The notes beneath the pieces were generated by a model. That model ran no database searches. It saw only the letters and a list, made by a program, of their open reading frames with translations, and had not been told where the DNA came from. Positions 20,581 to 47,695 of a DNA stretch of 64,000 nucleotides are shown piece by piece. The stretch comes from Streptomyces sp. Q6 (lineage in GTDB: Bacteria > Actinomycetota > Actinomycetes > Streptomycetales > Streptomycetaceae). Positions within the stretch are counted from its first letter, which is position 1, and each line of letters begins with the position of its first letter. The stretch lies in NCBI RefSeq assembly GCF_036967205.1, contig NZ_CP146023.1:1-64000 (forward strand), given 5' to 3'. Position numbers and translations under genes: made by a program.

Positions 20581-20793
20581 GTGTGGACAAACGAGGAGAC
20601 GGCAGCCGCAGGTCACAGAATAGATCCCGCCCATTGGCGCGAGGCGTTCGAGGTGGCTATGAGCCGGATTGCGGACCGGTTCGCCCGGGTCGAACCTCGC
20701 CTGCGGGCCGGGCGGTTGGTGCTGGGCCTGTTGTCGGACCTGCCGCGCAAAAACTGCTGGACGATCGCGGAGTGGACCGGGGAGAGGACCCGG
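20581..20793 (+). pseudogene. IS701-type transposase N-terminal remnant
   Basis: ARVEPRLRAGRLVLGLLSDL then PRKNCWTIAEWTGE is the conserved N-terminal block of IS701 transposases. The frame runs directly into an unrelated gene on the other strand after about 70 residues. The catalytic part is absent. Confidence 0.75.
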
Positions 20794-21006
20794 TCACGCC
20801 GCCTCATAGCGGTGGGCTCGGCCACCGCGCCACTTCACCCACGCCGGATCATCCAGCAGCCCCTCCCCGGCCTCCAGCCCGGCACGACGCAGGAACTCGA
20901 CGACATCGTGGTCCGAGTGCGCGAGGCCGAGGATCTGTCCGCGCGCGGTCACCCGCCGGCCGCCGGTACCGAGCGGCGGGTGCACGACTATCGGGGCACT
21001 CGTCAT
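20794..21006 (-). CDS. Small conserved hypothetical protein
   Basis: A 70-residue protein (MTSAPIVVHPPLGTGGRRVT, then ARGQILGLAHSDHDVVEFLR) resembling short Streptomyces proteins of unknown function. The start is ATG 21006 with GGAGG immediately upstream, a spacing that is unusually short. The stop codon abuts the IS701 remnant, so the last residues (HRYEAA) may have been changed by the junction. Confidence 0.6.
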   Translation of the reverse strand: MTSAPIVVHPPLGTGGRRVTARGQILGLAHSDHDVVEFLRRAGLEAGEGLLDDPAWVKWRGGRAHRYEAA

Positions 21007-21257
21007 ACCTCCAGGGTGCGTTCTCAGGCCAGCAGAGGCATCTGGACCTCCGCGCACCCAGGAACACAGACGAGCCTGAGGGTGTGGCCGCCGCGTGAAG
21101 GCGGGCCGGAGATGTGCAGGACTTCGTCAACCCGGGAGGACTTGGGCGCAACGTGGCAGAGCGCAGCTCGTTGCCTCCCTGAGACCAGCTGCGGAACCCA
21201 TCGCGTGGACGAGCGAGCGGGGAAGTGCACACCCCGCAGCCGGACTCTTCCCCTGGG

Positions 21258-21293
21258 ACCTGGCCCCGCTTCCTCGAACCAGCGGGGCCAGGT
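21258..21293. terminator. Hairpin A: 13-bp perfect stem, 10-nt loop
   Basis: ACCTGGCCCCGCT (21258-21270) pairs exactly with 21281-21293. It has no trailing T run. First of three close hairpins. Confidence 0.6.
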
Positions 21294-21321
21294 GCTCCCC
21301 GACCGCCGACGACCGGGGAGC
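21294..21321. repeat. Hairpin B: 8-bp stem, 12-nt loop
   Basis: GCTCCCCG (21294-21301) pairs with CGGGGAGC (21314-21321). It starts directly after hairpin A. Its loop (ACCGCCGACGAC) resembles that of hairpin C. Confidence 0.6.
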
Positions 21322-21406
21322 GACTGACATCGGCGGTGCACGGGGTCCAGGTGCACAGTCGACTTGCCATGAACTACCGGCTCACGCCCGCGTACGGATG
21401 CAGCGT

Positions 21407-35937: not shown

Positions 35938-37149
35938 TCATCCGGTGTGGTGCAGCGACGGGTTGACCCAGCGTGGCCGGGGCGGGTCGAGGACGCGTTC
36001 GGCGTGGGTGAGTGGTGTCTGGGGGTGCTCCGCGGGGAGTGGATCGTGCGCCAGGCTGAGTGGCCGGTTGTGTTCCTCCAGGGTGCCCACGGTGTCGCGG
36101 ACGAAGGCGGGGGGACCCGCGACGTAGACGTGACGGGCGGCCAGGGAGCGCTCACCGGCCAGATGGTCCTGGAACGCACGCTGGAACCCGCGGACCCGGT
36201 CCGGGTCCCGTGGCCACCACCAGTGGCAGGTCAACTGGTGGTGACGGCTCTCGAGCTGGGCAAGGTGGGACTGGTCGTAGAAGTGGTCACGGCTACGGGC
36301 CACTATGTGCAGGTCAATGGTGCGCGCCGGGAAACGTTGCACCTGCTCGCTGAGGACGGCACGGGCCGGAGCCCACCCCGTGCCTGCCGCGATCAGGGTC
36401 AGCGGTCCCGTGTCCTGCGTGGTCCAGCCGTCCCCGCCAGGCGAGGACAGGGTGAGGGACTGCCCGGTAAAGGTGTGGTCGCACAGCAGCGCGCTCAAAG
36501 CCCCATGGGGAGTGCGGGCGACGTGGAGTTCCACCTCGCCGCGTGTCGCGTCGTCGCCCGGGCGCACCAACGAGTAGGGACGCCACACGCCGCGCAGTTC
36601 CGGGTGGTGGACGGCCGCGTACTGACCGGGCCGGAAGGCGTAGGGCTGGTCGGGCACCGTCTGCAGGACCACCGTGTGCCCGGTGCGGTCCAGGCGGCGG
36701 GAGACGACGGTTGCCTCCCAGCTCGCCGGGCGCCGTGCGTCCTTGTCCTGCTGGGCCGCGGCCAGCATGGTGTCCATCGCCATGCCGTACACGTTCGTCC
36801 AGGCCCGTTCGGTGTCCTCGCTCCAGGTCCGGGGAGTGTGCTCGGCGATCGATGCGATCAGGCTCTGTCCGACGCTGAGGTAATCGCGCCGGGCGATGCC
36901 GTACCGGCGGTGGTCACGACCCAGCCGTTGGAGGTAGGACACCGTGGCGGGACGGTCGAGATGCGTGATGACGTGCAGCAGCGCGTTCAGCAGCCGCTCG
37001 TGCTGCTCCCCGAGTTCGGCAGGGAAGAGCCGACGCAGGTCCGGTCTGCTGCCGAACAGGTGCGCATAGAAGTACCGGACCACGTGCACTCCGCGGGCCG
37101 ATGCTCGCTGCAGACTGTCCTGCACTATGGCCACGTCCTGCTCGTCCAC
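35938..37149 (-). CDS. Flavohemoglobin-like protein
   Basis: A 403-residue protein with two parts. The globin domain (residues about 1-135) reads VQDSLQRASARGVHVVRYFY, with the likely proximal His in RLGRDHRRYGI. The reductase part has an FAD motif (RPYSLVRPG, R-x-Y-S) and an NAD-binding motif (LIAAGTGWAPARAVL). Flavohemoglobins oxidise NO to nitrate or act in redox sensing. The GTG start at 37149 follows GGGGAGC. It is the first gene downstream of a CCAATCC-type promoter motif at 37189-37217. Confidence 0.85.
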   Translation of the reverse strand: MDEQDVAIVQDSLQRASARGVHVVRYFYAHLFGSRPDLRRLFPAELGEQHERLLNALLHVITHLDRPATVSYLQRLGRDHRRYGIARRDYLSVGQSLIASIAEHTPRTWSEDTERAWTNVYGMAMDTMLAAAQQDKDARRPASWEATVVSRRLDRTGHTVVLQTVPDQPYAFRPGQYAAVHHPELRGVWRPYSLVRPGDDATRGEVELHVARTPHGALSALLCDHTFTGQSLTLSSPGGDGWTTQDTGPLTLIAAGTGWAPARAVLSEQVQRFPARTIDLHIVARSRDHFYDQSHLAQLESRHHQLTCHWWWPRDPDRVRGFQRAFQDHLAGERSLAARHVYVAGPPAFVRDTVGTLEEHNRPLSLAHDPLPAEHPQTPLTHAERVLDPPRPRWVNPSLHHTG

Positions 37150-37188
37150 TACCGCTCCCCCTCGTCGTGCCTACCGTCCCCTGCCAGG

Positions 37189-37217
37189 AATCCGGGACCC
37201 CAGCCCCGACGGATTGG
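37189..37217 (-). promoter_or_regulatory. SigK-type promoter before flavohemoglobin
   Basis: On the minus strand CCAATCC, 15 nt, CCGGATT. The expected transcription start is about 33 nt before the GTG. Confidence 0.75.
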
Positions 37218-37268
37218 TCTACTCCACAAGGAAATCTGCGGGGGCGTCGCTGGAGTTCGGGCGCGGGT

Positions 37269-37949
37269 TCAGGACTCGGGGTCGAGGCGGGCGTAGACGA
37301 CGGTGTTGTCGGCGTAGGAGTGACCGCTGTATGTGCCGGCGCAGGTGATCAGTCGCAGTGCGGCGTAGTCGACGTTGCCGTAGACGTCGATGGAGGGGAA
37401 GTCCTTCTTGGCGTACTGCTCGGTGCGGGAGACGGTGAAGCGGGCGGTGGAGCCGTCCTTGCGGTGCACGTACACGTGGTCGCCTGCCTTCAGGCGGGCG
37501 AGCTGGAAGAAGACTGCCTTGGTCTCATTCCACGTGACGTGACCGGCGATGACGGCCGGGCCTCTGGCGCCGGGGGTGGGGCCGGGTGTGTACCAGCCCA
37601 CGCGAGCCGGGTCCTTGGGAGTCTGCATGGCCCGGTGCGCATCCAGAGCCAGGCGTTCCAGCGAAGTGTCGACGCCTATCGCCGGGATGGACAGGCGCGT
37701 CGGCGCCGACGCGGCCATCACTGCAGGACGCTCGTCGTGGTGCGGCGAGCTGCTGTTCCCCGCCGCTGAGGGCGGCGCGGACCGACGAGCAGGTTCCTGC
37801 GCGGGATGGGCAACGGGAGGTGCGGGCTGTTGCCGCAACAGGCCTACGACCAGGGCGGTGGCACCCAGCAGCAGGAGCACGGCGGCCGCCGTGGCCGACA
37901 GCGAGCGCTGTCGGCCACGGCGCAGCCGCCTGAACAGGCGGGAATCCAT
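37269..37949 (-). CDS. Class F-type sortase
   Basis: A 226-residue sortase. It has an N-terminal membrane anchor (LSATAAAVLLLLGATALVVG) and a Pro/Ala linker. The catalytic residues are His in VIAGHVTWN, Cys in LRLITCAGTYSG and Arg in VVYARLD. Sortases join surface proteins to the wall or lipid II. ATG 37949 lies 7 bp after the CHRD gene stop; a GTG at 37985 would overlap it. Its only clear neighbour is the CHRD protein, which lacks an obvious LPxTG signal, so the substrate is uncertain. Confidence 0.85.
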   Translation of the reverse strand: MDSRLFRRLRRGRQRSLSATAAAVLLLLGATALVVGLLRQQPAPPVAHPAQEPARRSAPPSAAGNSSSPHHDERPAVMAASAPTRLSIPAIGVDTSLERLALDAHRAMQTPKDPARVGWYTPGPTPGARGPAVIAGHVTWNETKAVFFQLARLKAGDHVYVHRKDGSTARFTVSRTEQYAKKDFPSIDVYGNVDYAALRLITCAGTYSGHSYADNTVVYARLDPES

Positions 37950-37956
37950 CGCCGTG

Positions 37957-38766
37957 TCAGCGGGCGTTGTCGCCGAGGTGGGCACGGCGTCGGCGTGCCA
38001 CCGTGAGCGCGCCGGCCGCGGCGAGGGCCGCTCCGCCGCCGGCGATCAGGCCCGGTGCTTCGATGCCGGCGGTGCTGCCCGATCCGGTTTCGACACCGCC
38101 CGCCGGCATGGAGCCGACCGCTGCCCCCTGGACCATGCCGCAGTCCGTCGGTGCGGTCGCTTCCTGCGGAAGCTTCGGGTCGAGTTCGCTCTTGCCCTTG
38201 CCGAAGTCGTACTTGTCGTTGTGGTTGGGATCGATGCCGTGCTGGACCACATGCAGGTCCTTGATGTGGTCGGCGACCTCCTGCGACACGGTGATCGTGC
38301 GCTCGTAGGAGAGTTTGCCGCTCTTGTCCGCGACCGGCATCCGGTCGACGGCCAGACCGCTCTTCTTGGACGTGTCGCCCTTGGTGGTCAAGGAGATGTT
38401 GATGTCGCCGTAGACCGGAAGGCCCTCGGCGGTGGTGACGATGCCGTCCTTGTTCTTGTCCGCGGACGCGTCCGGGCAGTGGAAGTCATGGCCGTCGGTG
38501 GAACCGTGGATGTGCTGTGCGTGGGGCTGGCCGGGCACGAGTCCGGACGCTTCGATCTTCACGGTGAGCCGGGTGCCGTCGAGCATGAGCATCGCCGTGC
38601 CCTTGGCGCCGGAGTTGTTCAGCGAGGCCAGGTCGATCTGGTACGTGTCGCCGGAGCCACTTGCCGCGGTGTGGCCGGTGTGCGCGCCGGCGGGAACAGC
38701 GGCCAGGGCGAGAGCCGCGGGAACGGCGGCAAGGGCGGTCAGTCGTGCGGTGTGACGGGCTATCAC
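37957..38766 (-). CDS. Secreted CHRD-domain protein with C-terminal anchor
   Basis: A 269-residue protein. GTG 38766 starts a signal peptide (ARLTALAAVPAALALAAVPA, then GAHTGH). The CHRD-like beta domain (NNSGAKGTAMLMLDGTRLTV, then GQPHAQHIHGSTDGHDFHCP with a His-rich metal-like site) spans about residues 40-200. The C-terminus has a membrane segment (LIAGGGAALAAAGALTVA) and an RRRR stop-transfer tail. Co-transcribed with the sortase. Under the motif at 38838-38867. Confidence 0.8.
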   Translation of the reverse strand: MIARHTARLTALAAVPAALALAAVPAGAHTGHTAASGSGDTYQIDLASLNNSGAKGTAMLMLDGTRLTVKIEASGLVPGQPHAQHIHGSTDGHDFHCPDASADKNKDGIVTTAEGLPVYGDINISLTTKGDTSKKSGLAVDRMPVADKSGKLSYERTITVSQEVADHIKDLHVVQHGIDPNHNDKYDFGKGKSELDPKLPQEATAPTDCGMVQGAAVGSMPAGGVETGSGSTAGIEAPGLIAGGGAALAAAGALTVARRRRAHLGDNAR

Positions 38767-38837
38767 AGCAAGCCTCTTTCCTGTGCCGTTCAGCGATCTG
38801 CCGACGGCTTCGGACTCCACAAGCTTCTGACTCCCCT

Positions 38838-38867
38838 ATTCCGGAGGCCTACCGGGAGGCGGATTGG
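38838..38867 (-). promoter_or_regulatory. SigK-type promoter before CHRD-sortase operon
   Basis: Minus strand: CCAATCC, 16 nt, CCGGAAT. The predicted leader is about 65 nt. Confidence 0.75.
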
Positions 38868-39436
38868 TCGCATCGTGGTCGGTCTGTTGAGCGGCGTGTG
38901 TGTCTGCGGGTTCCTGAGGTGTGTGCGAGATGGCTCTCAAGACGGCTTCCCTCAGCTCCGCGGGCGGCGTCACCGGGCACGGTTCAGGGCTCAAGTGGCA
39001 GGTCGCGAGGCGCATTTCGCCTCGGTCACACGCACGTTGCTTCCTGCTGCCGCGGCAGGCCCGGGCCCTGAACCGGCAACCAGCCGCAGGCTCGGCCCGT
39101 ACCCGCCTCATCAACGACGCGAACAGGATGTGCACTCTCACGGCTGCTCCCCCGGAGTAATCGACCTGGCCGCTGAAGCGGCAGGTATCACCGCTTTCCT
39201 GCGGCGGCCGTTGCCTCGCCTTATCGGGCGGTGTGGTGTGGGTCGGTGTGCCCGCCGGTAATCCGGCGGCCTGTGCCCCACGGCTTGGTCTTCGCACAAG
39301 CCGTCACTCTTTCGCCCCGCACACTGCCCTCCAGATCGTGGAATACCGGCAGCCCGGCGGCGCTGCCACCAGGGACCGCGCCGCTCTGCCTGCTACTGCT
39401 GCCGCAGGCCCCTTCATCCCTCGATGGCGTGAACGA
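38868..39436. other. Gap between divergent promoters
   Basis: About 570 bp separate the divergent CHRD and sulfite-oxidase promoters. No gene with a convincing motif was found. Confidence 0.4.
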
Positions 39437-39465
39437 CCAATCCAGGCGCAGCGCAAGAACGGATT
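39437..39465 (+). promoter_or_regulatory. SigK-type promoter, leaderless, before sulfite-oxidase-like gene
   Basis: CCAATCC, 15 nt, ACGGATT. The -10-like box ends 7 bp before the ATG at 39473, so the predicted transcript begins at or next to the start codon. This agrees with the lack of a ribosome-binding site. Confidence 0.8.
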
Positions 39466-39472
39466 CCCGCAC

Positions 39473-41146
39473 ATGGACGACGACTCGACCCCCACGCATC
39501 TGCGCGGCATCAAACGCCTGTCTCTGGGCGCACTGAGCGGACTGCTCGCCGGTTATGCGGCGATCGCGGTCGCCGAGCTGGTCTCCGCGGCGGTGCGGCC
39601 CGAATCGGGTCCGGTCATCGCGGTTGGCGGGGCGGCGATCGACCGCACCCCGCCGGCGGTCAAGGACTGGGCGATCCGGCAGTTCGGCACGAACGACAAG
39701 CTGGTGCTGCAACTGGGCATTCTGGCCGTGCTGACCGTGCTCGCCCTCGTGCTGGGGGCGCTCGCCGCACGATGGCGGCTGATCGGTTCCCTCGGTGTCC
39801 TCGCGTTCGGCGTCGTCGGTGCCCTGGCCGCCACCAGCAGGCCCGACTCCACCAGCATCACCGACGCGCTGCCCTCCGCCGTCGGCGCCATCGCCGGCGC
39901 CTGCCTGCTCTACTACTTGACCGGCCGCCTTGGACGCACGGCGAACGTCGCCGGCCGGGCCACCGTCCCTCCAGGCTCGGTTTCGGAAGACTCCGCGGCG
40001 CAGGCACTGGATGACACAGCCCCCGTACATGACGCTGACGGCTCAGGCGGGTCGGGGTGGGACCGGCGCGGGTTCATCCTGGCCGCGACCGCCGCGGCCG
40101 CGGCTTCCACCGGTGCCGGGCTCGCGGGCCGGGCGCTGAACGGGTCCCAGGGCCAGAACGCCGTCGCCTCCCGGAAGGACGTCGTGATCCCCGCCCCGGC
40201 GTCGAAGGCGGCCCCGGTGCCGCGCGGCGCGGCCCTGCGGATCAAGGACATCAGCCCGTTCATGACGCCCAACGGTGACTTCTACCGCGTCGACACCGCA
40301 CTGGTCGTCCCGAAGGTCGACGCCACCAGCTGGAAGCTGCGTATCCACGGCAAGGGCGTCGAGCGCGAACTGACCGTCTCCTTCGCCGACTTGCTGAAGA
40401 TGCCGCTCATCGAACGCAACATCACCCTCACCTGCGTCTCCAACGAGGTCGGCGGCCCCTACGTCGGCAACGCCCGCTGGATCGGCGTCCGCCTGACCGA
40501 CCTCCTCAAGCAGTGCGGGGTGAAACCGCCGTCGAAGGGCGGGCCCGCGGACCAGCTGGTGGCGCGGTCGGTGGACGGGATGACCATCGGCAGCCCGGTC
40601 GAGGACGTGATGGACGGCCGCGACGCGATGCTCGCCCTCGGCATGAACGGCCAGCCGCTGCCCTTCGAGCACGGTTTCCCCGTACGCATGATCGTGCCCG
40701 GGTTGTACGGCTACGTGTCGGCCTGCAAATGGATCCAGGACATCGAGCTGACCACGTTCGACGCCTACGACTCGTACTGGGTCAAGCGGGACTGGGCACA
40801 GAAGGCGCCCATCAAGACCGAGTCCCGCATCGACACCCCCAAGCCCTTCGCCCGCCCGAAAGCCGGCACCGTGATGGTCGCCGGAGTTGCCTGGGCGCAG
40901 CACCGCGGCATCGACAAGGTCGAGATCCGCGTCGACGACGGGCCCTGGGAAGAAGCACGCCTCGCCACCGAGGACACCCGCGACACCTGGCGCCAGTGGT
41001 CCTACCCCTGGGACGCCACCAAGGGCGGCCACACCCTGACCGTCCGGGCCACCGACCGCACCGGCGAGACCCAGACCGAGCAGCGCACCCCCACCATCCC
41101 CGACGGCGCCTCCGGATGGCACTCCGTCGTCGTCACCGTCGACTGA
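39473..41146 (+). CDS. Membrane-anchored sulfite-oxidase-like molybdoenzyme
   Basis: A 557-residue protein. Four membrane segments at the N-terminus (e.g. LGALSGLLAGYAAIAVAEL, LVLQLGILAVLTVLALVLGA) are followed by an RRGF sequence before a hydrophobic stretch (DRRGFILAATAAAAAS), like a Tat-type signal. The molybdopterin domain has the Mo-ligand Cys in ITLTCVSNEVGG (about residue 321), followed by VGNARWIGVRLTDLL, and a C-terminal Mo-co dimerisation domain (AGTVMVAGVAWAQHRGIDKV). It resembles YedY/SorT-type oxidoreductases; the substrate (sulfite or protein methionine sulfoxide) is not shown by sequence. Confidence 0.85.
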   Translation: MDDDSTPTHLRGIKRLSLGALSGLLAGYAAIAVAELVSAAVRPESGPVIAVGGAAIDRTPPAVKDWAIRQFGTNDKLVLQLGILAVLTVLALVLGALAARWRLIGSLGVLAFGVVGALAATSRPDSTSITDALPSAVGAIAGACLLYYLTGRLGRTANVAGRATVPPGSVSEDSAAQALDDTAPVHDADGSGGSGWDRRGFILAATAAAAASTGAGLAGRALNGSQGQNAVASRKDVVIPAPASKAAPVPRGAALRIKDISPFMTPNGDFYRVDTALVVPKVDATSWKLRIHGKGVERELTVSFADLLKMPLIERNITLTCVSNEVGGPYVGNARWIGVRLTDLLKQCGVKPPSKGGPADQLVARSVDGMTIGSPVEDVMDGRDAMLALGMNGQPLPFEHGFPVRMIVPGLYGYVSACKWIQDIELTTFDAYDSYWVKRDWAQKAPIKTESRIDTPKPFARPKAGTVMVAGVAWAQHRGIDKVEIRVDDGPWEEARLATEDTRDTWRQWSYPWDATKGGHTLTVRATDRTGETQTEQRTPTIPDGASGWHSVVVTVD

Positions 41147-41258
41147 CTCCTGGCCAAAGCGCACTTCGGGCCCTGATTCGAGTAGAAGGGGAACGCTGTG
41201 CGTTACTGGTGACTTTGACCTGCTCTGCCGCTGCCCAGCGGTGTTCGGAAGGCGGCAC

Positions 41259-41843
41259 ATGACACACCCCAGGCCGATCAGGCCCGGCCCAACCCGTGGA
41301 CCTGATCTGCAGGAACAGCTCGCCCTCGTCGCGCAGGGGGATCGCGATGCGTTCTCCGTCATCTATGACGCGGTGGCTGCGCCCGTGTTCGGCGTCGTGT
41401 GCAAACTGCTGCGCGATCATGCCCAGTCCGAGGAAGTCGCCCAGGAAGTCCTCGTCGAGGTCTGGCGTACCGCGGCGCGCTACCGGGCGGATCGGGGCAC
41501 GGTCCTGAACTGGGTGCTCACCTTGGCGCACCGCCGCACTGTCGACCGGATCCGCTCGGTGGAGGCGGCTGCCGCGCGCGACCACCGCGTCGCGCTGCTC
41601 GATCAGGTCCCGGAGTTCGACGAGGTGAGTGAACAGGTGGAGGGGCGGTTGGAGCGGGAACAGCTGCGGCGCTGCCTGCGTTCCCTGAGTGTGATCCAGC
41701 GTCAGTCGGTGACGTTGGCGTACTACCAGGGCCTCACGTACAAGGAGGTCGCCGAGACACTGTCCGCGCCGTTGGGCACCGTCAAGACCCGGCTGCGTGA
41801 CGGTCTCATCCGGCTTCGCGACTGCTTGGGGGTGACCGTATGA
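41259..41843 (+). CDS. sigK: ECF sigma factor, SigK (ECF19) type
   Basis: A 194-residue ECF sigma factor. Region 2 (LALVAQGDRDAFSVIYDAVA, then AQSEEVAQEVLVEVWRTAAR) and region 4 (LRSLSVIQRQSVTLAYYQGL, then TYKEVAETLSAPLGTVKTRL) are both complete. ATG 41259 follows GGAAGGCGGC. It overlaps the RskA-type gene by 4 bp. It lies 112 bp after the molybdoenzyme gene in the same direction, and no own copy of the promoter motif was seen, so read-through from 39437 is plausible. It probably drives the motif-bearing genes around it. Confidence 0.9.
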   Translation: MTHPRPIRPGPTRGPDLQEQLALVAQGDRDAFSVIYDAVAAPVFGVVCKLLRDHAQSEEVAQEVLVEVWRTAARYRADRGTVLNWVLTLAHRRTVDRIRSVEAAAARDHRVALLDQVPEFDEVSEQVEGRLEREQLRRCLRSLSVIQRQSVTLAYYQGLTYKEVAETLSAPLGTVKTRLRDGLIRLRDCLGVTV

Positions 41844-42589
41844 CCGCCCCGACCGACCTGCACACGCTGACGGGCGCCTACGCGCTGGATGCCCTCGACG
41901 AGGACGAGCGCGTCGCGTTCGAGCAGCACCTTGCCAAGTGCGAGGACTGCGCCCAGGAGGTACGTGAGCTGACGGCGACCGCTGGACGGCTGGCCCTCGC
42001 GGCCACGATGCCGGCACCGCCCCGCCTCAAGGCCCAGGTGCTGGAGCAGATCGCCGGTGTGCGCCAGGAGCGCCCTCATTCTGCGGTGACGGCCTTGTCG
42101 CGCACAGCGCGTCGCGGGCACGCCATGCGCTGGGCGCTCGCCGCCTGTGTCGCCGCTGCTGCCGCTCTCGGCGGCACGACGCTGTGGCAGCACCAGCAGG
42201 CCGACGAAGCCCGTCAACAGGCCGAGGCCGCGCAGCGCCAGGCCGACCAGATCAATGAGGTGCTCGCCGCCCCGGACGCCACAGTGACCTCGACCGCCGT
42301 CGGCGGCGGGGCGCGCGGCTCCGTGGTCGTCTCGCACGACAGCGACAAGGCCGTCTTCATCGCCTCCGGCATGGCGAAGCCGCCGGAGGGCAAGGTGTAC
42401 CAACTGTGGTTCACCGACGGCGATCAGATGCGCCCGGCCGGCCTGATGAACCCATCCCGGGCGAGCCAGAGCGTCCTGATGACGGGCGCCGTCGACAAGG
42501 CGTCCGGCGTGGGCGTCACCCTCGAACCGGACGGCGGATCAAAGCAGCCCACCACCCAGCCGGTGGCCCTGCTGCAGCTTCCCGCCTGA
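41840..42589 (+). CDS. rskA: RskA-type anti-sigma factor
   Basis: A 249-residue protein. The zinc-binding anti-sigma motif is HLAKCEDCAQEV (His-x3-Cys-x2-Cys, residues about 31-38). A membrane segment (MRWALAACVAAAAALGGTTL, about 95-114) follows, then the extracytoplasmic RskA domain (VFIASGMAKPPEGKVYQLWF). It holds the sigma factor until a signal from outside triggers release, usually by regulated proteolysis. The start overlaps sigK (ATGA). Confidence 0.9.
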   Translation: MTAPTDLHTLTGAYALDALDEDERVAFEQHLAKCEDCAQEVRELTATAGRLALAATMPAPPRLKAQVLEQIAGVRQERPHSAVTALSRTARRGHAMRWALAACVAAAAALGGTTLWQHQQADEARQQAEAAQRQADQINEVLAAPDATVTSTAVGGGARGSVVVSHDSDKAVFIASGMAKPPEGKVYQLWFTDGDQMRPAGLMNPSRASQSVLMTGAVDKASGVGVTLEPDGGSKQPTTQPVALLQLPA

Positions 42590-42614
42590 TCGACCCCGCC
42601 CTTCCTGGGCATGA

Positions 42615-42645
42615 TCAAGGGGTGCACCATCGGTGCACCCCTTGA
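42615..42645. terminator. Bidirectional terminator
   Basis: TCAAGGGGTGCACC (42615-42628), ATC loop, and its exact complement (42632-42645): a 14-bp stem between the convergent rskA and fasciclin genes. Confidence 0.8.
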
Positions 42646-42686
42646 CTCCCCTTTTCCCTCCGACTGCGCGCCGTTCGGTCGTACAG

Positions 42687-43268
42687 TCAGCTCTTGGGCA
42701 TCAGGACGGTGTCGATGATGTGGACGGTGGCGTTCGAGGTCTGCACATTGCCGCAGACGATGTTCGCGGTGTCGTTGACCTTGTACTTCTCGCCCGATCC
42801 GGACGTGGTGAGCATGCCGCCCTCCAGCGTCTTGAAGCTGCCGTCAGCCAGCTTGTCCTGCGTGGCCTTCTCCCCGACCACGTGGTAGGTCAGGATCTTG
42901 GTCAGCTGGGCCTTGTCGTTGAGGACCTTGTCCAGATCCGCCTTCGGGATCTTCGCGAACGCCTCATTGGTCGGCGCGAACACCGTGATGTCCTTCGCGT
43001 TGTTCAGCGTGTCCACCAGACCGGCCTTCTTCACCGCCGCCACCAGCGTCGACAGGTCCGGGTTGTGCGAGGCGGCCGTCGCCACCGGGTCCTTGGCCAT
43101 GCCGTCGAAGGAACCCGCACCGTCCTTGGGCACGGAGGAACAGGCCGGCCCGAACGGGCCCGTCATGTCGTCGGCCGACGCCGCCGGGGCCAGCGCCGCC
43201 AGCGAGAACGGCAGCGCGAGCGCCGCCCCTCCGACCAGGATCCGGGTGCTTACGCGATGAGCGGTCAT
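42687..43268 (-). CDS. Secreted fasciclin-domain protein
   Basis: A 193-residue protein with a signal peptide (LVGGAALALPFSLAALAPAA) and one fasciclin (FAS1) domain: NPDLSTLVAAVKKAGLVDTL, ITVFAPTNEAFAKIPKADLD and ILTYHVVGEKATQDKLADGS. It is homologous to MPT70/MPT83 of mycobacteria. ATG 43268 follows AAAGGAG. Its promoter motif is at 43383-43411. It shares a long identical core with the fasciclin lipoprotein at 44695, so the two are recent paralogues. Confidence 0.9.
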   Translation of the reverse strand: MTAHRVSTRILVGGAALALPFSLAALAPAASADDMTGPFGPACSSVPKDGAGSFDGMAKDPVATAASHNPDLSTLVAAVKKAGLVDTLNNAKDITVFAPTNEAFAKIPKADLDKVLNDKAQLTKILTYHVVGEKATQDKLADGSFKTLEGGMLTTSGSGEKYKVNDTANIVCGNVQTSNATVHIIDTVLMPKS

Positions 43269-43382
43269 GATCAACACTCCTTTGCGGCGGGCGAGCGGGC
43301 TCGCCGGGCCCCCGAGCAGCCCGGGGCCGGTGAGAGCGCGGGCTACCGGGGGTCGGCGCGTCATTCGCGCCCTCACATCGAG

Positions 43383-43411
43383 AATTCGTCACCACGCAAG
43401 GGGCGGATTGC
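43383..43411 (-). promoter_or_regulatory. SigK-type promoter before fasciclin gene
   Basis: Minus strand: GCAATCC, 15 nt, ACGAATT. It is weaker than the consensus but in the same arrangement. Confidence 0.6.
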
Positions 43412-43438
43412 CCCGATTTGAGAATTTCGAGGATTTCG

Positions 43439-43468
43439 GCAATCCAGGGCGGGTGCTGGTGCCGGATT
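43439..43468 (+). promoter_or_regulatory. SigK-type promoter before SH3/DUF4383 genes
   Basis: GCAATCC, 16 nt, CCGGATT, about 95 bp before the SH3-protein ATG. It is divergent from the fasciclin promoter 30 bp away. Confidence 0.7.
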
Positions 43469-43563
43469 CCCGGTGGAGGGCGCACCCGATGGTGCGGCGC
43501 CATTTCACACTCGGACCCGCGGGCGCACGGGACGGGAGGGGAGATCCGAGGAGGAGTCTGGCC

Positions 43564-44016
43564 ATGAACCGATCGAAGATCCGCACCCGGGCCTGCGCCG
43601 CCGCCCTGACAGGGGCCTTCGCCCTGACCGGCCTCGCCGCCAGCGGCAGCGCCCACGCCTCCGGCTGGGACCCGGACGACTGGGGGCCCGGCAGCTCCTG
43701 GTCGGAGTCTTGGACCTGGTCGGGGTCCTGGACGGTATCCGCGGCCGGGGCCTGGTCCTGGTCCGGAAACGGGCATGCCGACCATATCGCTCCGGCCGTC
43801 GTGACGGCACGGACCGAGGTCTACGTCCGTGACGCGCCGACCGTGCACGCGAAGGCGACCGCCACGCTGCCCGCGGGTTCCCATATCCGGCTGTTCTGCC
43901 AGACCGACGGTGGCCACGCGGACGGAACGTCCACCTGGTACTTCGACAACGACGCCCACGGCTGGATCAGCGCCGCCCATGTCCGGCCCACCGGCTGGCA
44001 GCCGCCCAGTTGCTGA
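43564..44016 (+). CDS. Secreted SH3-like protein with Trp/Ser/Gly-rich linker
   Basis: A 150-residue protein with a signal peptide (ALTGAFALTGLAASGSAHAS). A linker full of Trp-Ser repeats follows (SWSESWTWSGSWTVSAAGAW). The C-terminal SH3-like domain reads RTEVYVRDAPTVHAKATATL, then WYFDNDAHGWISAAHV. It is cell-surface exposed; the domain probably binds cell-wall material. ATG 43564 follows GAGGAG. The DUF4383 gene is 42 bp downstream. Confidence 0.8.
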   Translation: MNRSKIRTRACAAALTGAFALTGLAASGSAHASGWDPDDWGPGSSWSESWTWSGSWTVSAAGAWSWSGNGHADHIAPAVVTARTEVYVRDAPTVHAKATATLPAGSHIRLFCQTDGGHADGTSTWYFDNDAHGWISAAHVRPTGWQPPSC

Positions 44017-44058
44017 CAGCTGCCCGTATCCGCCAGGAGGGGCAAGGAGGTTCTCGCC

Positions 44059-44559
44059 ATGACCACACTGCACGCCGGCCCCCACGCCCGACCGCGGGTG
44101 AAGCTCGACGATCACCTGCCGGTCGACCACCGCCTGAGCCGGGTCTACCGGCTCAGCGCCGGAACCATGGGCCTGTTCCTCGTGACGTTCGGCGTCCTGG
44201 GGCTCATCCGCCGGATCGGCTTCTTCGACACCGGCACCAACACCGCCCTCGGCCTCAACACCAACGGGGCCCTGAGTGTCCTTTCCCTGGTGGTCGGCGG
44301 CGTGCTCCTGGCGGCCGCCGTCCGCGGCGGCAACGCCGCGTCCACCGTCAACATGGTGCTCGGGATCGGCTTCCTGCTGGCCGGATTGGCGTTCCTGTTC
44401 GCGCTGGACAGCCGGTTCAACTTTCTCAACTTCCGCATGCAGAACGTCCTGTTCAGCTTCGCCGTCGGACTGCTGCTGATGACCGGCGGCATGTACGGAA
44501 GAGTCAGCGGGGGCCTCCCTCACGACAACCCGTACTGGCTCTCCCGGCACCCGGGCTGA
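44059..44559 (+). CDS. DUF4383 membrane protein
   Basis: A 166-residue protein with four hydrophobic segments (e.g. AGTMGLFLVTFGVLGLIRRI and SVLSLVVGGVLLAAAVRGGN) and the DUF4383-type sequence ASTVNMVLGIGFLLAGLAFL. No function is known for the family. It probably belongs to the SH3-protein operon and so to the same regulon. Confidence 0.85.
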   Translation: MTTLHAGPHARPRVKLDDHLPVDHRLSRVYRLSAGTMGLFLVTFGVLGLIRRIGFFDTGTNTALGLNTNGALSVLSLVVGGVLLAAAVRGGNAASTVNMVLGIGFLLAGLAFLFALDSRFNFLNFRMQNVLFSFAVGLLLMTGGMYGRVSGGLPHDNPYWLSRHPG

Positions 44560-44613
44560 CCAGGGCGTACGGGGGCTCTCCTCCCCTTGGGTTTCACTCT
44601 TTCGAGGAACCGA

Positions 44614-44642
44614 CCAATCCGCGGCGGCGACCGCACCGGATT
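44614..44642 (+). promoter_or_regulatory. SigK-type promoter before fasciclin lipoprotein
   Basis: CCAATCC, 15 nt, CCGGATT; a near-perfect match to the set. About 52 bp before the ATG. Confidence 0.8.
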
Positions 44643-44694
44643 CCCGGCGATGGAGGCGGATGGCCTTCACAGTTCTGATCGTTGAGGGATTTTC

Positions 44695-45345
44695 ATGCAG
44701 ACTCGCCTTCGTCGTGCCGCCGTCGTCGTCGCCGCCGCGGCCATGCTGCCGCTGGCGCTGACCGCCTGCTCCGACAGCGATTCCAAGGACAAGGCCTCCG
44801 ACAGCGCGTCCTCGGCTGCGTCGAAGGGGTCGGACAAGGCCAGCCCTTCCGACGACATGAGCACCGCCGATGAGCCGTTCGGCTCGGCCTGTTCCTCTGT
44901 GCCGAAGGACGGCGCCGGCTCCTTCGACGGCATGGCCAAGGACCCGGTCGCCACCGCCGCCTCCAACAACCCGGCCCTGTCGACCCTGGTCACCGCGGTG
45001 AAGAAGGCCGGCCTGGTCGACACCCTGAACAACGCCGAGAACATCACCGTGTTCGCGCCCACCAACGACGCCTTCGCCAAGATCCCGAAGGCCGACCTGG
45101 ACAAGGTCCTCAGCGACAAGGCCCAGCTCACCAAGATCCTGACCTACCACGTCGTGGGCCAGAAGCTGGCGCCCAAGGACCTGGAGAAGGGCTCCTTCGA
45201 CACTCTGGAGAAGTCGAAGCTCACCACCTCCGGCTCCGGCGAGAACTACAAGGTCAACGACAGCGCCAACGTCGTCTGCGGCAACGTCAAGACCGCCAAC
45301 GCCAACGTCTACATCATCGACTCCGTCCTCATGCCCAAGAGCTGA
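44695..45345 (+). CDS. Fasciclin-domain lipoprotein
   Basis: A 216-residue lipoprotein: the signal peptide ends in a lipobox (LPLALTAC, Cys at about residue 23), then a Ser/Asp-rich linker. The FAS1 domain (about residues 65-215: NPALSTLVTAVKKAGLVDTL, ITVFAPTNDAFAKIPKADLD, ENYKVNDSANVVCGNVKTAN) is close to that of 42687-43268. It corresponds to MPT83-type proteins, with the secreted paralogue corresponding to MPT70. The MPT70/MPT83 genes are SigK targets in mycobacteria. Confidence 0.9.
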   Translation: MQTRLRRAAVVVAAAAMLPLALTACSDSDSKDKASDSASSAASKGSDKASPSDDMSTADEPFGSACSSVPKDGAGSFDGMAKDPVATAASNNPALSTLVTAVKKAGLVDTLNNAENITVFAPTNDAFAKIPKADLDKVLSDKAQLTKILTYHVVGQKLAPKDLEKGSFDTLEKSKLTTSGSGENYKVNDSANVVCGNVKTANANVYIIDSVLMPKS

Positions 45346-45637
45346 CGGACCACGAGCCGACAGAGCCGAGCAGAGGGAAGACGGGAAACCTGCGCCCCTC
45401 CTTCCTGCTGTCACCCACAGAAATCGGGGGCAGCACAAAAGAGGGGAACAGTTCCGGGCCGCTTGAGCGGTGGCCTCCCGACGGTTGTGTCCGGTGGGCG
45501 AGGCGGACGGCGATTCGGAAGCGCAGTCGCCGGCCGCCTCGTCCACCTTCTTCGTCTCCTGGCCATCTCCGAGAGGTTTGCGGACAGGGCCTCGCCGAGA
45601 GCTCGCAGCACGTTCAACTGAAGTGGGAAATGCGCGG

Positions 45638-45946
45638 GTGGACGTACTGAATGTGCTGGCCTGCCTACCCATTGGGGTGGTGGCGGCCACCCTGGGGCGC
45701 CTCCTGGACACCGGCAGGCCCCGCGTGTCGGTCATGTGGACGATGGCGACCGCCGTACTGGCCGCGCTCATCGGCACGGGCGGTGCGTTCCTTGTCGCGC
45801 CCGCCTGATTTGCGGGTGGCGGCTGGATCTGTCTGATCCTTCAGGCCGGCCCCGCCATCGCTGCCGTGCTCTGTACGGAGTTCATCAGGCCCCGCAGCCA
45901 GACACCTCCGCCTCGATCCCCGGGGCCCGCCCCGCCGAAGACCTGA
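45638..45946 (+). pseudogene. Small membrane protein with in-frame TGA
   Basis: GTG 45638 starts a frame with two helices (VLACLPIGVVAATLGRLLDT, SVMWTMATAVLAALIGTGGA) ending at TGA 45806-45808. If that TGA is ignored, the frame continues with GGGWICLILQAGPAIAAVLC, then SQTPPPRSPGPAPPKT to a second stop at 45944. The open continuation with a third hydrophobic helix suggests a premature stop in a ~102-residue gene. Family unknown. Confidence 0.5.
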
Positions 45947-46260
45947 CATCCATGGTGCCCGCACGACCATGCAGCCCTTTTCCGACTCGCCGCGAACACC
46001 GGAGACCGGTCGAGGCGGGCCGGCACCGTCCGCAGCGGGTTTGGCGGATCATCAGATGGTTCCGGCCGGTCATGCTGTGGCGGGCGCACGAGTCCGCCCT
46101 GTCTCCCACCACGGGCCCGGTCCAGCGGCCTACAGAGGGCGCGTCATGCAGCATTCATACGCACCACATCCCCGGCGCCGCGTGATGCTGCGGCACCGGG
46201 TTGCGCGATACAGCGGAGGGGCCCCTGACGGGCCGACCGCCGGTACCTACGGGCGGTGGA

Positions 46261-46590
46261 CTACTTCCACATGCCCCTGTCGGCGTCGTGGTTCATCGAG
46301 CCGTGGTGGCCCATGTGGCCCTCGTCCCAGGCGTGATGGCCCCAGTTGCCCGAGCCGTTGGCGCAGCTGTTGCCGAAAGCCGGGTTGAGCAGGCCGATGA
46401 GGTTGACAGTGTTGCCGCAGGCGTTGACCGGGACGTGGACCGGCACCTGGAGGACGTTGCCGGACAGCACCCCGGGCGACCCCACAGCGGCGCCCTGAGC
46501 TCCGGCGTCCGCGGACGCCGCGCCCGCACCGGCCAGGACCGAACCGCCGATGGCCACCGCGATCGCCGCACTCTTCAGCACACGAGACAT
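46261..46590 (-). CDS. Chaplin
   Basis: A 109-residue secreted protein. The signal peptide (LKSAAIAVAIGGSVLAGAGA) is followed by one chaplin domain with the two conserved Cys (PVHVPVNACGNTVNLIGLLN, then AFGNSCANGSG), and a His-rich tail (HHAWDEGHMGHHGS). Chaplins assemble into surface-active amyloid films on aerial hyphae. ATG 46590 follows GGAG. The tail is longer than in ordinary short chaplins, and a promoter motif lies upstream at 46664-46693. Confidence 0.85.
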   Translation of the reverse strand: MSRVLKSAAIAVAIGGSVLAGAGAASADAGAQGAAVGSPGVLSGNVLQVPVHVPVNACGNTVNLIGLLNPAFGNSCANGSGNWGHHAWDEGHMGHHGSMNHDADRGMWK

Positions 46591-46663
46591 GAAACGCTCC
46601 ACACTTCCGCACGGTCCCCTCCCCCTGAGGTCGGGGACGAGAAGCGGTTGGCTTCTCACTGGC

Positions 46664-46693
46664 CATCCGGAGCGTCCCTGAGGGCTGGATTGG
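46664..46693 (-). promoter_or_regulatory. SigK-type promoter before chaplin
   Basis: Minus strand: CCAATCC, 16 nt, CCGGATG. Confidence 0.7.
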
Positions 46694-47044
46694 CTGCACG
46701 GCTGGAGTTCACCCGTCCGGACTACATGCCACCCGTCGGCGCCCGTTTCAAGTCGGTGGCCCACCGGCGTCCGGAAGACACAACTCATCGGCGCATGCTG
46801 TATTTCCACGGCCCTTTCGACGAGCGCGACGTCGATACCCCAACCCGCGCCCGCCCTGGCCGTCGAAAACTGGTGAACACCGCGTACGACTTGATGGGGC
46901 ATCCCCCAGTGGAGCGCCCCTGCTGACGGTCCTCGACGCCGCGAACCGACCCCGCGCACTCGCCCAGATCTGCCTGTGCCTCACCGCAGTGTCACAAGGA
47001 TCGGGGCGACGTCATCGCGAGTTGCCCGCCTTCTTGCAGCAGTG
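46694..47044. other. Gap with no recognised gene
   Basis: 351 bp between the chaplin promoter and the SRPBCC stop. Nothing recognisable. Confidence 0.4.
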
Positions 47045-47530
47045 TCAACCCGTCGCACCCGCCGGAGACTTCTCGACGGTACGCGCGAGGATGCCGAGCG
47101 TCGCGCGCAGGCCAGCCTCCGGGATCACCGGAAAGACGCCCGCCTCGCGGTACCTGTCATCAATCTTGCTCCAGTCGTAGTACGACGTGACGACCGTGGC
47201 GGAATCGGAGGGTTCGAGCCGGTAGCCGTACAAGTGACGGATAGGCGGCTGGATGGTGCCCGAGATCGTCCATTCCAGCAGGGCGTCGCGTTCGAAACGC
47301 GTGATGATCACAGTCACGTCGTAGCGGCCCATGGGCAGGTCACCCAGTGCCTCCCGGTCCATGTGCACAACGAACTCGTCCCCGACCGCTCCCACGGGGT
47401 CGCCCTGCGCGGACTGCAGCATGCCCGAGCTGTCGATGCTCACATGTCCCTGCGGAGAACGCAGCACATCGAAGATCGCAGAGGGCGAGGCGGCGATGTG
47501 ACGCGTGACTTCGAAGCGTTCAGCTGTCAT
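47045..47530 (-). CDS. SRPBCC family protein
   Basis: A 161-residue START-like protein: FEVTRHIAASPSAIFDVLRS, GDEFVVHMDREALGDLPMGR, then LEWTISGTIQPPIRHLYGYR. The gene is preceded, about 140-165 bp upstream, by a weaker two-box motif (47667-47695), so it may belong to the same sigma regulon as 37-46 kb. The role is unknown; the fold binds hydrophobic ligands. Confidence 0.8.
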   Translation of the reverse strand: MTAERFEVTRHIAASPSAIFDVLRSPQGHVSIDSSGMLQSAQGDPVGAVGDEFVVHMDREALGDLPMGRYDVTVIITRFERDALLEWTISGTIQPPIRHLYGYRLEPSDSATVVTSYYDWSKIDDRYREAGVFPVIPEAGLRATLGILARTVEKSPAGATG

Positions 47531-47666
47531 CCCTCCACCCTTGCACTCCCCCGTCGATCGTCCTACTGCCGGGGCGCCTGAATCTCGCAGGGCACCGCAC
47601 GCGCCCGCCGATTACGGAGCAGTGGAGAATTCCTACACCTACAGCAATAGACATTGACGGCTATGA

Positions 47667-47695
47667 CATACGGAGCAGATACCGTTCCGGATTGG
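47667..47695 (-). promoter_or_regulatory. Possible SigK-type promoter before SRPBCC gene
   Basis: Minus strand: CCAATCC, 15 nt, CCGTATG. The second box is the weakest of the set. Confidence 0.45.

Follow-up and report, generated by a model that had tools for sequence, protein, structure and literature searches.

The mycobacterial SigK-RskA regulon comprises mpt70, mpt83, dipZ and the Rv0449c-sigK-rskA cluster, and mycobacterial SigK promoters carry the box pair CCATCC/CCGAAT. That SigK-RskA has fasciclin targets is already known. Extracytoplasmic function (ECF) sigma factors have promoter features in common, and Streptomyces has many of them. Excerpts of PMC7509140 report that SigK sites are conserved among Actinobacteria, that about 35% of SigK is placed in each of the groups ECF18 and ECF19, that SigK of M. 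tuberculosis is autoregulated through the Rv0449c promoter and that the oxidation state of a cysteine pair influences the SigK-RskA complex. A passage of published work describes the signal of mycobacterial SigK as obscure. The S. coelicolor protein named SigK (SCO6520) is, by the excerpt that describes it, a SigB homologue and not an ECF SigK, so that only the name is alike. Here we analyzed the first 64 kb of contig NZ_CP146023.1 of Streptomyces sp. Q6 (positions 1 to 64,000, hereafter the window), where eight sites surround a sigK-rskA pair. These sites very probably serve as promoters for a SigK-type ECF sigma factor that the anti-sigma factor RskA keeps in check. As far as the literature searched shows, what is new is the set of targets in Streptomyces, the occurrence of most of it on two replicons and the common promoter grammar; among the Creative Commons-licensed PMC matches listed, judged by title and abstract opening, none describes this regulon of Streptomyces.

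The locus resembles its mycobacterial counterpart in its SigK-model sigma factor with a cysteine pair, the overlapping RskA-type anti-sigma factor, the fasciclin-domain targets and, judged by site, a putative autoregulation. It differs in that the -35 box is mainly CCAATCC, followed by a 15-nt spacer, and in that the targets include a molybdoenzyme, a sortase substrate, a chaplin and a DUF4383 protein, most of them present on two replicons. No dipZ-like gene was found among 16 window proteins scanned with Pfam.

Promoter sites around sigK and rskA

The consensus CCAATCC-N15/16-[CA]CGGATT/CGAAT precedes eight genes or putative operons of the window. On the minus strand it stands before the flavohemoglobin-like gene (37189..37217, a perfect strict match 39 nt before GTG), the CHRD-sortase unit (38838..38867, 71 nt from the -10 end to the start codon), the secreted fasciclin gene (43383..43411, 114 nt), the chaplin gene (46664..46693, 73 nt) and, weakly, the SRPBCC gene (47667..47695, 136 nt, matrix score 17.7). 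The plus strand carries the sites of the molybdoenzyme gene (39437..39465, 7 nt before ATG), the SH3-DUF4383 unit (43439..43468, 95 nt) and the fasciclin lipoprotein gene (44614..44642, 52 nt). All eight were found where the original prediction, made by reading the sequence, had placed them and on the same strands, with start codons 7-136 nt downstream of the -10 end. Its box sequences hold for six -35 boxes, while the sites at 43383-43411 (fasciclin) and 43439-43468 (SH3-DUF4383) begin GCAATCC. The SRPBCC site is present and as weak as had been said, but its -10 box, CCGTATG, has two mismatches to the -10 pattern used. A ninth, weaker site that the prediction did not include (39260-39288, minus strand, CCAAGCC-N15-CCGGATT, score 18.7) is retained in a chromosomal copy of the cluster (18.7) and is weaker in the related locus L110 (14.8). 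This site is directed away from the molybdoenzyme gene, toward 400 bp in which no open frame makes a convincing gene.

The sigma factor gene sigK (41259..41843, plus strand, with an alternative upstream GTG at 41241) encodes a protein that passes the NCBIfam SigK model NF007228 with 274.6 bits (curated cut-off 226), and its best solved relative is the ECF SigK in PDB 4nqw (E 2.1e-42). Aligned with 4nqw, it has the cysteine pair matching Cys133/Cys183 of M. tuberculosis SigK; the pair is invariant in 8/8 relatives and in the 80/80 named relatives introduced below. The start of rskA (41840..42589, plus strand) overlaps the sigK stop, and its product matches the Pfam families RskA_C (108.6 bits), RskA_N (30.7 bits) and zf-HC2. 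The sigK gene lies 94-112 nt behind the molybdoenzyme gene, and no terminator-like element was found on the plus strand between the two. The molybdoenzyme promoter at 39437..39465 probably also serves the sigK-rskA pair behind it, and it is from this presumed co-transcription that we infer autoregulation.

Rarity of the motif and clustering at SigK genes

Searches used the strict pattern CCAATCCN{14,17}MCGRAWT, and the main background control was the same pair of half-sites in swapped order. The reversed pattern, which reads CCTAACC and gives 1 match against 26 for the swapped control in 101 genomes, was dropped as main control because CTAA is expected to be rare in GC-rich coding DNA, so that swapped half-sites form the fairer background. 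The strict pattern has 4 matches in the window, with a mean of 0.00 in 100 shuffles. An excess over background had been set as a test beforehand, and it was found: the whole Q6 genome holds 9 strict matches against 0 for the swapped control. Each of the nine has a SigK homologue at a distance of no more than 12 kb, a truncated one in one case. A weight matrix was built from nine sites of this genome, seven of them from the window, which makes it partly circular for scoring the window; all 12 window matches with a score of at least 15 fall within 37187-47695.

With a relaxed pattern the genome yields 18 matches: 7 in the window, 5 in its chromosomal copy, 2 others on the main contig C1 and 4 elsewhere. 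The two further C1 matches lie before a molybdoenzyme paralogue (C1:34 kb) and directly before another sigK (C1:90 kb). The four away from SigK genes are a match preceding a transposase-like open reading frame (L012, judged by eye), one within an open frame and also just upstream of a DUF4331 gene (L015), one within an open frame (L016) and one without a gene (L017).

Across 101 genomes of the genus, Q6 included, the strict pattern gives 52 matches in 25 genomes and the swapped control 26 matches in 24 genomes, and about half of the strict matches in other genomes may therefore be background. Nevertheless, 22/43 other-genome strict matches fall within 12 kb of a SigK homologue versus 0/26 swapped controls, where about 0.3% would be expected by chance from the share of such DNA in the genomes. 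We read out 42 of the 43, the omitted one duplicating the sequence of another match in the same genome. Recognised families follow in 28 cases (21 assigned by blastp, 7 by hand), namely molybdoenzyme (14, one broken), SigK (6), fasciclin (5), FAD-oxidoreductase (2) and CHRD (1) genes. In the class sample, a raw count of the strict pattern only gives matches in 70/296 genomes, which look scattered.

Conservation in related genomes

The named relatives are the best 80 of 571 loci, each with up to 20 kb around SigK, from 79 Streptomyces contigs and one Streptomycetaceae contig. They hold 199 matches with a score of at least 16 versus 39 for the swapped matrix, and 315 versus 152 at a score of at least 12, with a spacer of 15 nt in 275/315. 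Upstream sites scoring at least 16 were found for 66/89 SigK-like genes, 38/44 molybdoenzyme genes, 1/4 DUF4383 genes and the single SH3 gene (1/1), while rskA upstream regions gave a clean negative control (0/78). Another 53 named-locus matches score at least 17, and 25 of them precede one protein family, which we read as FAD amine-oxidases on the Pfam assignment of the Q6 member only.

Individual relatives keep much of the set. G059 has sites before seven of the eight target types: the molybdoenzyme, both fasciclin genes, DUF4383, the CHRD-sortase unit, the chaplin gene (protein 94% identical) and SRPBCC, where the intact gene has a site of score 20.2 lying 133 nt upstream and a 5'-truncated copy one of 19.3. 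L110 and L111 retain sites for the molybdoenzyme, both fasciclins and the SH3/DUF4383 unit; in L111 and G059 the SH3-DUF4383-type site directly precedes DUF4383. In the compared sites the boxes are 88-100% identical versus 52-71% for the spacers, a comparison of 3-8 sites for each of four genes in which the box figure is biased upward, all sites having been found by motif.

Several observations weigh against a SigK-type promoter set. Under a loose definition of the motif (up to two mismatches) the window count stands out less, since its 14 rows, which fall at 11 different places, compare with 0-8 rows (4.5 on average) in each of 20 first-order Markov controls, and 14/42 of the other-genome strict matches have no recognised family gene behind them, as is consistent with the swapped background. 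The sigK gene of the window has no site of its own and would be reached only via the molybdoenzyme promoter in front, an arrangement with sigK directly behind the molybdoenzyme gene that recurs in only 2/80 named loci. Only 11/49 fasciclin genes have their own site of at least 16; this is mostly explained by operons, as 35/49 lie directly behind a molybdoenzyme gene. The lone CHRD and sortase homologues in the 80 loci, both distant (L176, 46% and 34% identity), have no site (0/1 each). In the class sample (30 molybdoenzyme loci from 162 genomes with a match, one being the window's own and one without upstream DNA), sites of at least 16 precede 8/14 same-genus genes and 2/14 testable other-genus genes (L274, L280). 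Finally, the flavohemoglobin site is without comparative support. The gene has no close orthologue among the other 100 genomes, where its best relatives are at most 41% identical, and the case for its site consists of a perfect match, rarity and position. Of the link between redox chemistry, a molybdoenzyme and surface proteins that the original prediction had drawn, the sites were borne out, while the nitric oxide part comes from this one flavohemoglobin site.

Promoter, operator or chance

The sites could instead be operators of a dimeric transcription factor, a repressor or an activator, which we regard as improbable. The perfect site is indeed partly symmetrical, with the inverted repeat AATCC-N17-GGATT, and scores on both strands. 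Before sigK, however, the orientation is nearly fixed (62 forward, 1 reverse, 17 none, n=80), and before molybdoenzyme genes it is mostly forward (30 forward, 1 tie, 5 none, n=44), although the reverse strand scores better in 8 of these 44 upstream regions. Fasciclin genes are the most ambiguous, with 8 forward, 6 reverse and 35 without a site (n=49). The two halves also behave differently: CCAATCC occurs in 30/30 forward molybdoenzyme sites, whereas the -10 side reads GGATT in only 12/30 and GAAT in 13/30. In 29 of these 30 an in-frame start codon lies 6 nt (27) or 7 nt (2) past the -10 box, and this distance favors a promoter with a leaderless message, as the molybdoenzyme mRNA probably is. 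Among the 13 window proteins scanned between 35.9 and 47.7 kb, Pfam recognised no regulator besides SigK and RskA (two proteins had no Pfam match). An inverted-repeat operator was judged unlikely on the orientation, the constant -35 against the variable -10 and the fixed start distance.

Slightly less probable still is that a different ECF sigma factor of the genome uses these promoters and that their closeness to SigK is coincidental. A SigK-like sigma factor of about 60% identity, encoded next to DUF4331 genes, has the same grammar, so this neighboring clade could contribute; against coincidence, many genomes have the sites grouped around SigK genes, some of them immediately upstream of sigK.

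Chance combined with inheritance through duplication has next to no probability: while GC-rich DNA contains the loose motif fairly often, the strict background amounts to about 0.26 per genome (26 in 101) and the chaplin and SRPBCC regions are near-identical in two Q6 copies and hence not independent, this account is contradicted by the swapped control (9 strict matches against 0), by SigK clustering, by the named-locus counts and by independent conservation elsewhere with divergent spacers.

What favors SigK-type promoters is thus rarity, clustering at SigK genes, site conservation in orthologues, the empty rskA regions, orientation, the 6-7 nt molybdoenzyme spacing and the membership of the sigma factor in SigK.

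Copies of the cluster and further SigK genes

Contig C2 (385,579 bp), whose first 64 kb make up the window, is taken here to be a plasmid, a second replicon beside the main contig C1 (8,566,166 bp) in a genome of 8.95 Mb. The window segment 38824-48164 is copied on C1 at about 869-879 kb, the identity being 94.6% for 8.65 kb and 98.9% for the final 0.7 kb. In the 20 kb read around this chromosomal copy (L009), the CHRD promoter is retained without its genes, and neither a CHRD or sortase homologue nor one of the flavohemoglobin turned up. As far as 45.2 kb the two copies share about 85-96% identity; over 2 kb that include the chaplin gene (45201-47200) the figure is 99-100%, followed by 91% in the next 400-base bin and then 99%. 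The near-identical 2-kb block amid less similar copy DNA suggests recent gene conversion between the replicons. DNA to the left of the gene-less CHRD promoter (L009 6621-7240) matches window 20791-21405 at 92.9%, so the duplication break point is not simple.

The intact SigK genes number four, namely that of the window on C2 and three on C1, at 872 kb, 90 kb and 8.18 Mb. At the 8.18-Mb locus (L287) the -35 box reads CCCATCC both upstream of sigK and upstream of a molybdoenzyme gene that has an internal deletion and a fasciclin gene behind it (sites at L287 6670-6698 and 9803-9831), which is a hint of co-evolved specificity. The sites analyzed have CCAATCC or CCCATCC at -35 and CCGAAT or CCGGAT at -10. 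At C1:83.8 kb, a FAD amine-oxidase gene with a site of score 20.0 is followed by genes for a CMAS-family enzyme and a DUF1295 protein (Pfam), and behind these, on the opposite strand, lie rskA and the C1:90-kb sigK, which likewise has a site. In gene content this set resembles the mycobacterial Rv0449c-Rv0444c cluster; in contrast to that cluster, the sigK-rskA pair is oriented toward the FAD oxidoreductase gene on the other strand and has a separate promoter. Next to the molybdoenzyme paralogue at C1:34 kb lie a truncated sigK, behind it at C1:32 kb, and, at C1:35 kb, a chaplin paralogue that also has a site. The truncated sigK (L010 2127-2519) and the site at L010 4910-4939 are remains of a further cluster copy near the chromosome end.

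The SigK-like clade of about 60% identity adjoins DUF4331 genes. In a sample of 30 such loci of the genus from 50 genomes with a match (L290-L319), 26/30 score at least 14.0 upstream (25/29 without the lead gene), mostly as CCAATCC-N15-CCGAAT, and a divergent SigK-like sigma gene lies within the 1.5 kb examined in 26/30. This sigma factor and DUF4331 apparently form a separate pair with the same promoter grammar. The grammar is clade-wide, and several sigma factors probably serve the regulon of the window. The three further intact SigK genes have the same or near-identical grammar, which makes cross-regulation between the C2 and chromosomal sets probable. One SigK-type ECF promoter set, as originally proposed, is well supported; one regulon of this particular SigK was too narrow a claim, and the regulon cannot be assigned to the window SigK alone, as several paralogues share its grammar.

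SigK-type sites accompany molybdoenzyme-fasciclin pairs on three plasmids of other Streptomyces (L190, L191, L192). A SigK homologue (73%) that itself has a site lies close to the pair in L192 alone; the sigma genes near the other two pairs, in L190 and L191, are distant relatives (29-30%). The molybdoenzyme and fasciclin genes of L190 are separated by an IS5-type transposase.

A proposed SigK response

From sequence comparison we infer SigK dependence, co-transcription, signal, redox role, leaderless translation and cross-talk as parts of the following model. The extracytoplasmic part of RskA would perceive an envelope or redox signal and set SigK free. Released SigK would transcribe its own operon, with sigK co-transcribed with the molybdoenzyme gene, and so regulate itself. 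It would also transcribe a surface set made up of the two fasciclin proteins, the molybdoenzyme and the GVDTG-tagged CHRD protein with its class F sortase, and further the DUF4383, SH3-like and SRPBCC proteins, the chaplin and probably the flavohemoglobin. A working partnership of fasciclin protein and molybdoenzyme is supported by the fusion of fasciclin and molybdopterin-oxidoreductase domains in certain secreted enzymes, described in a passage of PMC1949818.

Tentatively, the SigK paralogues that share this grammar may jointly drive an envelope module that hops between replicons, and the ancestral task of SigK would in that case have been fasciclin redox upkeep. The core of the module would be the extracytoplasmic molybdoenzyme and fasciclin adhesins, a functional counterpart of mycobacterial DipZ-MPT70/MPT83, and the chaplin, the sortase with its substrate, DUF4383 and flavohemoglobin would have been recruited by promoter acquisition. 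Against such portability, plasmids L190-L192 are typed as non-mobilizable, as are 8/14 plasmid records with a match.

Two surface antigens of the tuberculosis bacterium are controlled by a relative of the SigK-type switch described here. A Streptomyces that shares the kind of sigma factor, the cysteine pair and the kind of target and has a wider regulon is a safe setting in which to study the signal of SigK and the function of fasciclin proteins, the molybdoenzyme being indicated as their partner. A sigma factor, anti-sigma factor and promoter set on two replicons is also a natural test of cross-talk.

Gene content of the locus

On the minus strand, the flavohemoglobin-like protein (35938..37149) combines a globin with a FAD/NAD reductase (Pfam); against the NO-inducible flavohemoprotein model it scored 116.6 bits, under the curated cut-off of 432. 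The CHRD-sortase unit encodes a class F sortase (37269..37985, minus; 184.4 bits, cut-off 166) and a secreted CHRD-like protein with a GVDTG sorting domain (37957..38766, minus; 32.4 bits, cut-off 29), the CHRD match of the latter being 21.9 bits and under the Pfam cut-off of 24.1. The molybdoenzyme is a sulfite-dehydrogenase-like molybdopterin oxidoreductase (39473..41146, plus; Oxidored_molyb in Pfam) with a membrane anchor seen by eye, and its scores against the SorA and SoxC models (124.2 and 115.3 bits) stay under the curated cut-offs of 600 and 420.

Downstream of rskA lie the genes for the secreted fasciclin protein (42687..43268, minus; Fasciclin in Pfam), a secreted SH3-like protein (43564..44016, plus), the DUF4383 membrane protein (44059..44559, plus; Pfam) and the fasciclin lipoprotein (44695..45345, plus; Fasciclin in Pfam, lipobox LTAC by eye). 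The SH3 label comes from the original prediction only; for this open reading frame Pfam gave no match, and a weak GsmA match reached 22.7 bits (cut-off 240). The SRPBCC-like protein (47045..47530, minus) matches Polyketide_cyc2 with 27.2 bits, just under the cut-off of 27.4.

The chaplin (46261..46590, minus) has a ChpA-C domain (Pfam). BldN takes part in the regulation of Streptomyces chaplins, and a published passage describes a BldM motif in the same context. The chaplin gene of the window is likewise predicted to be under specific control; in contrast to the BldM/BldN case it has a SigK-type site, which is kept in G059 and before the paralogue in the Q6 genome.

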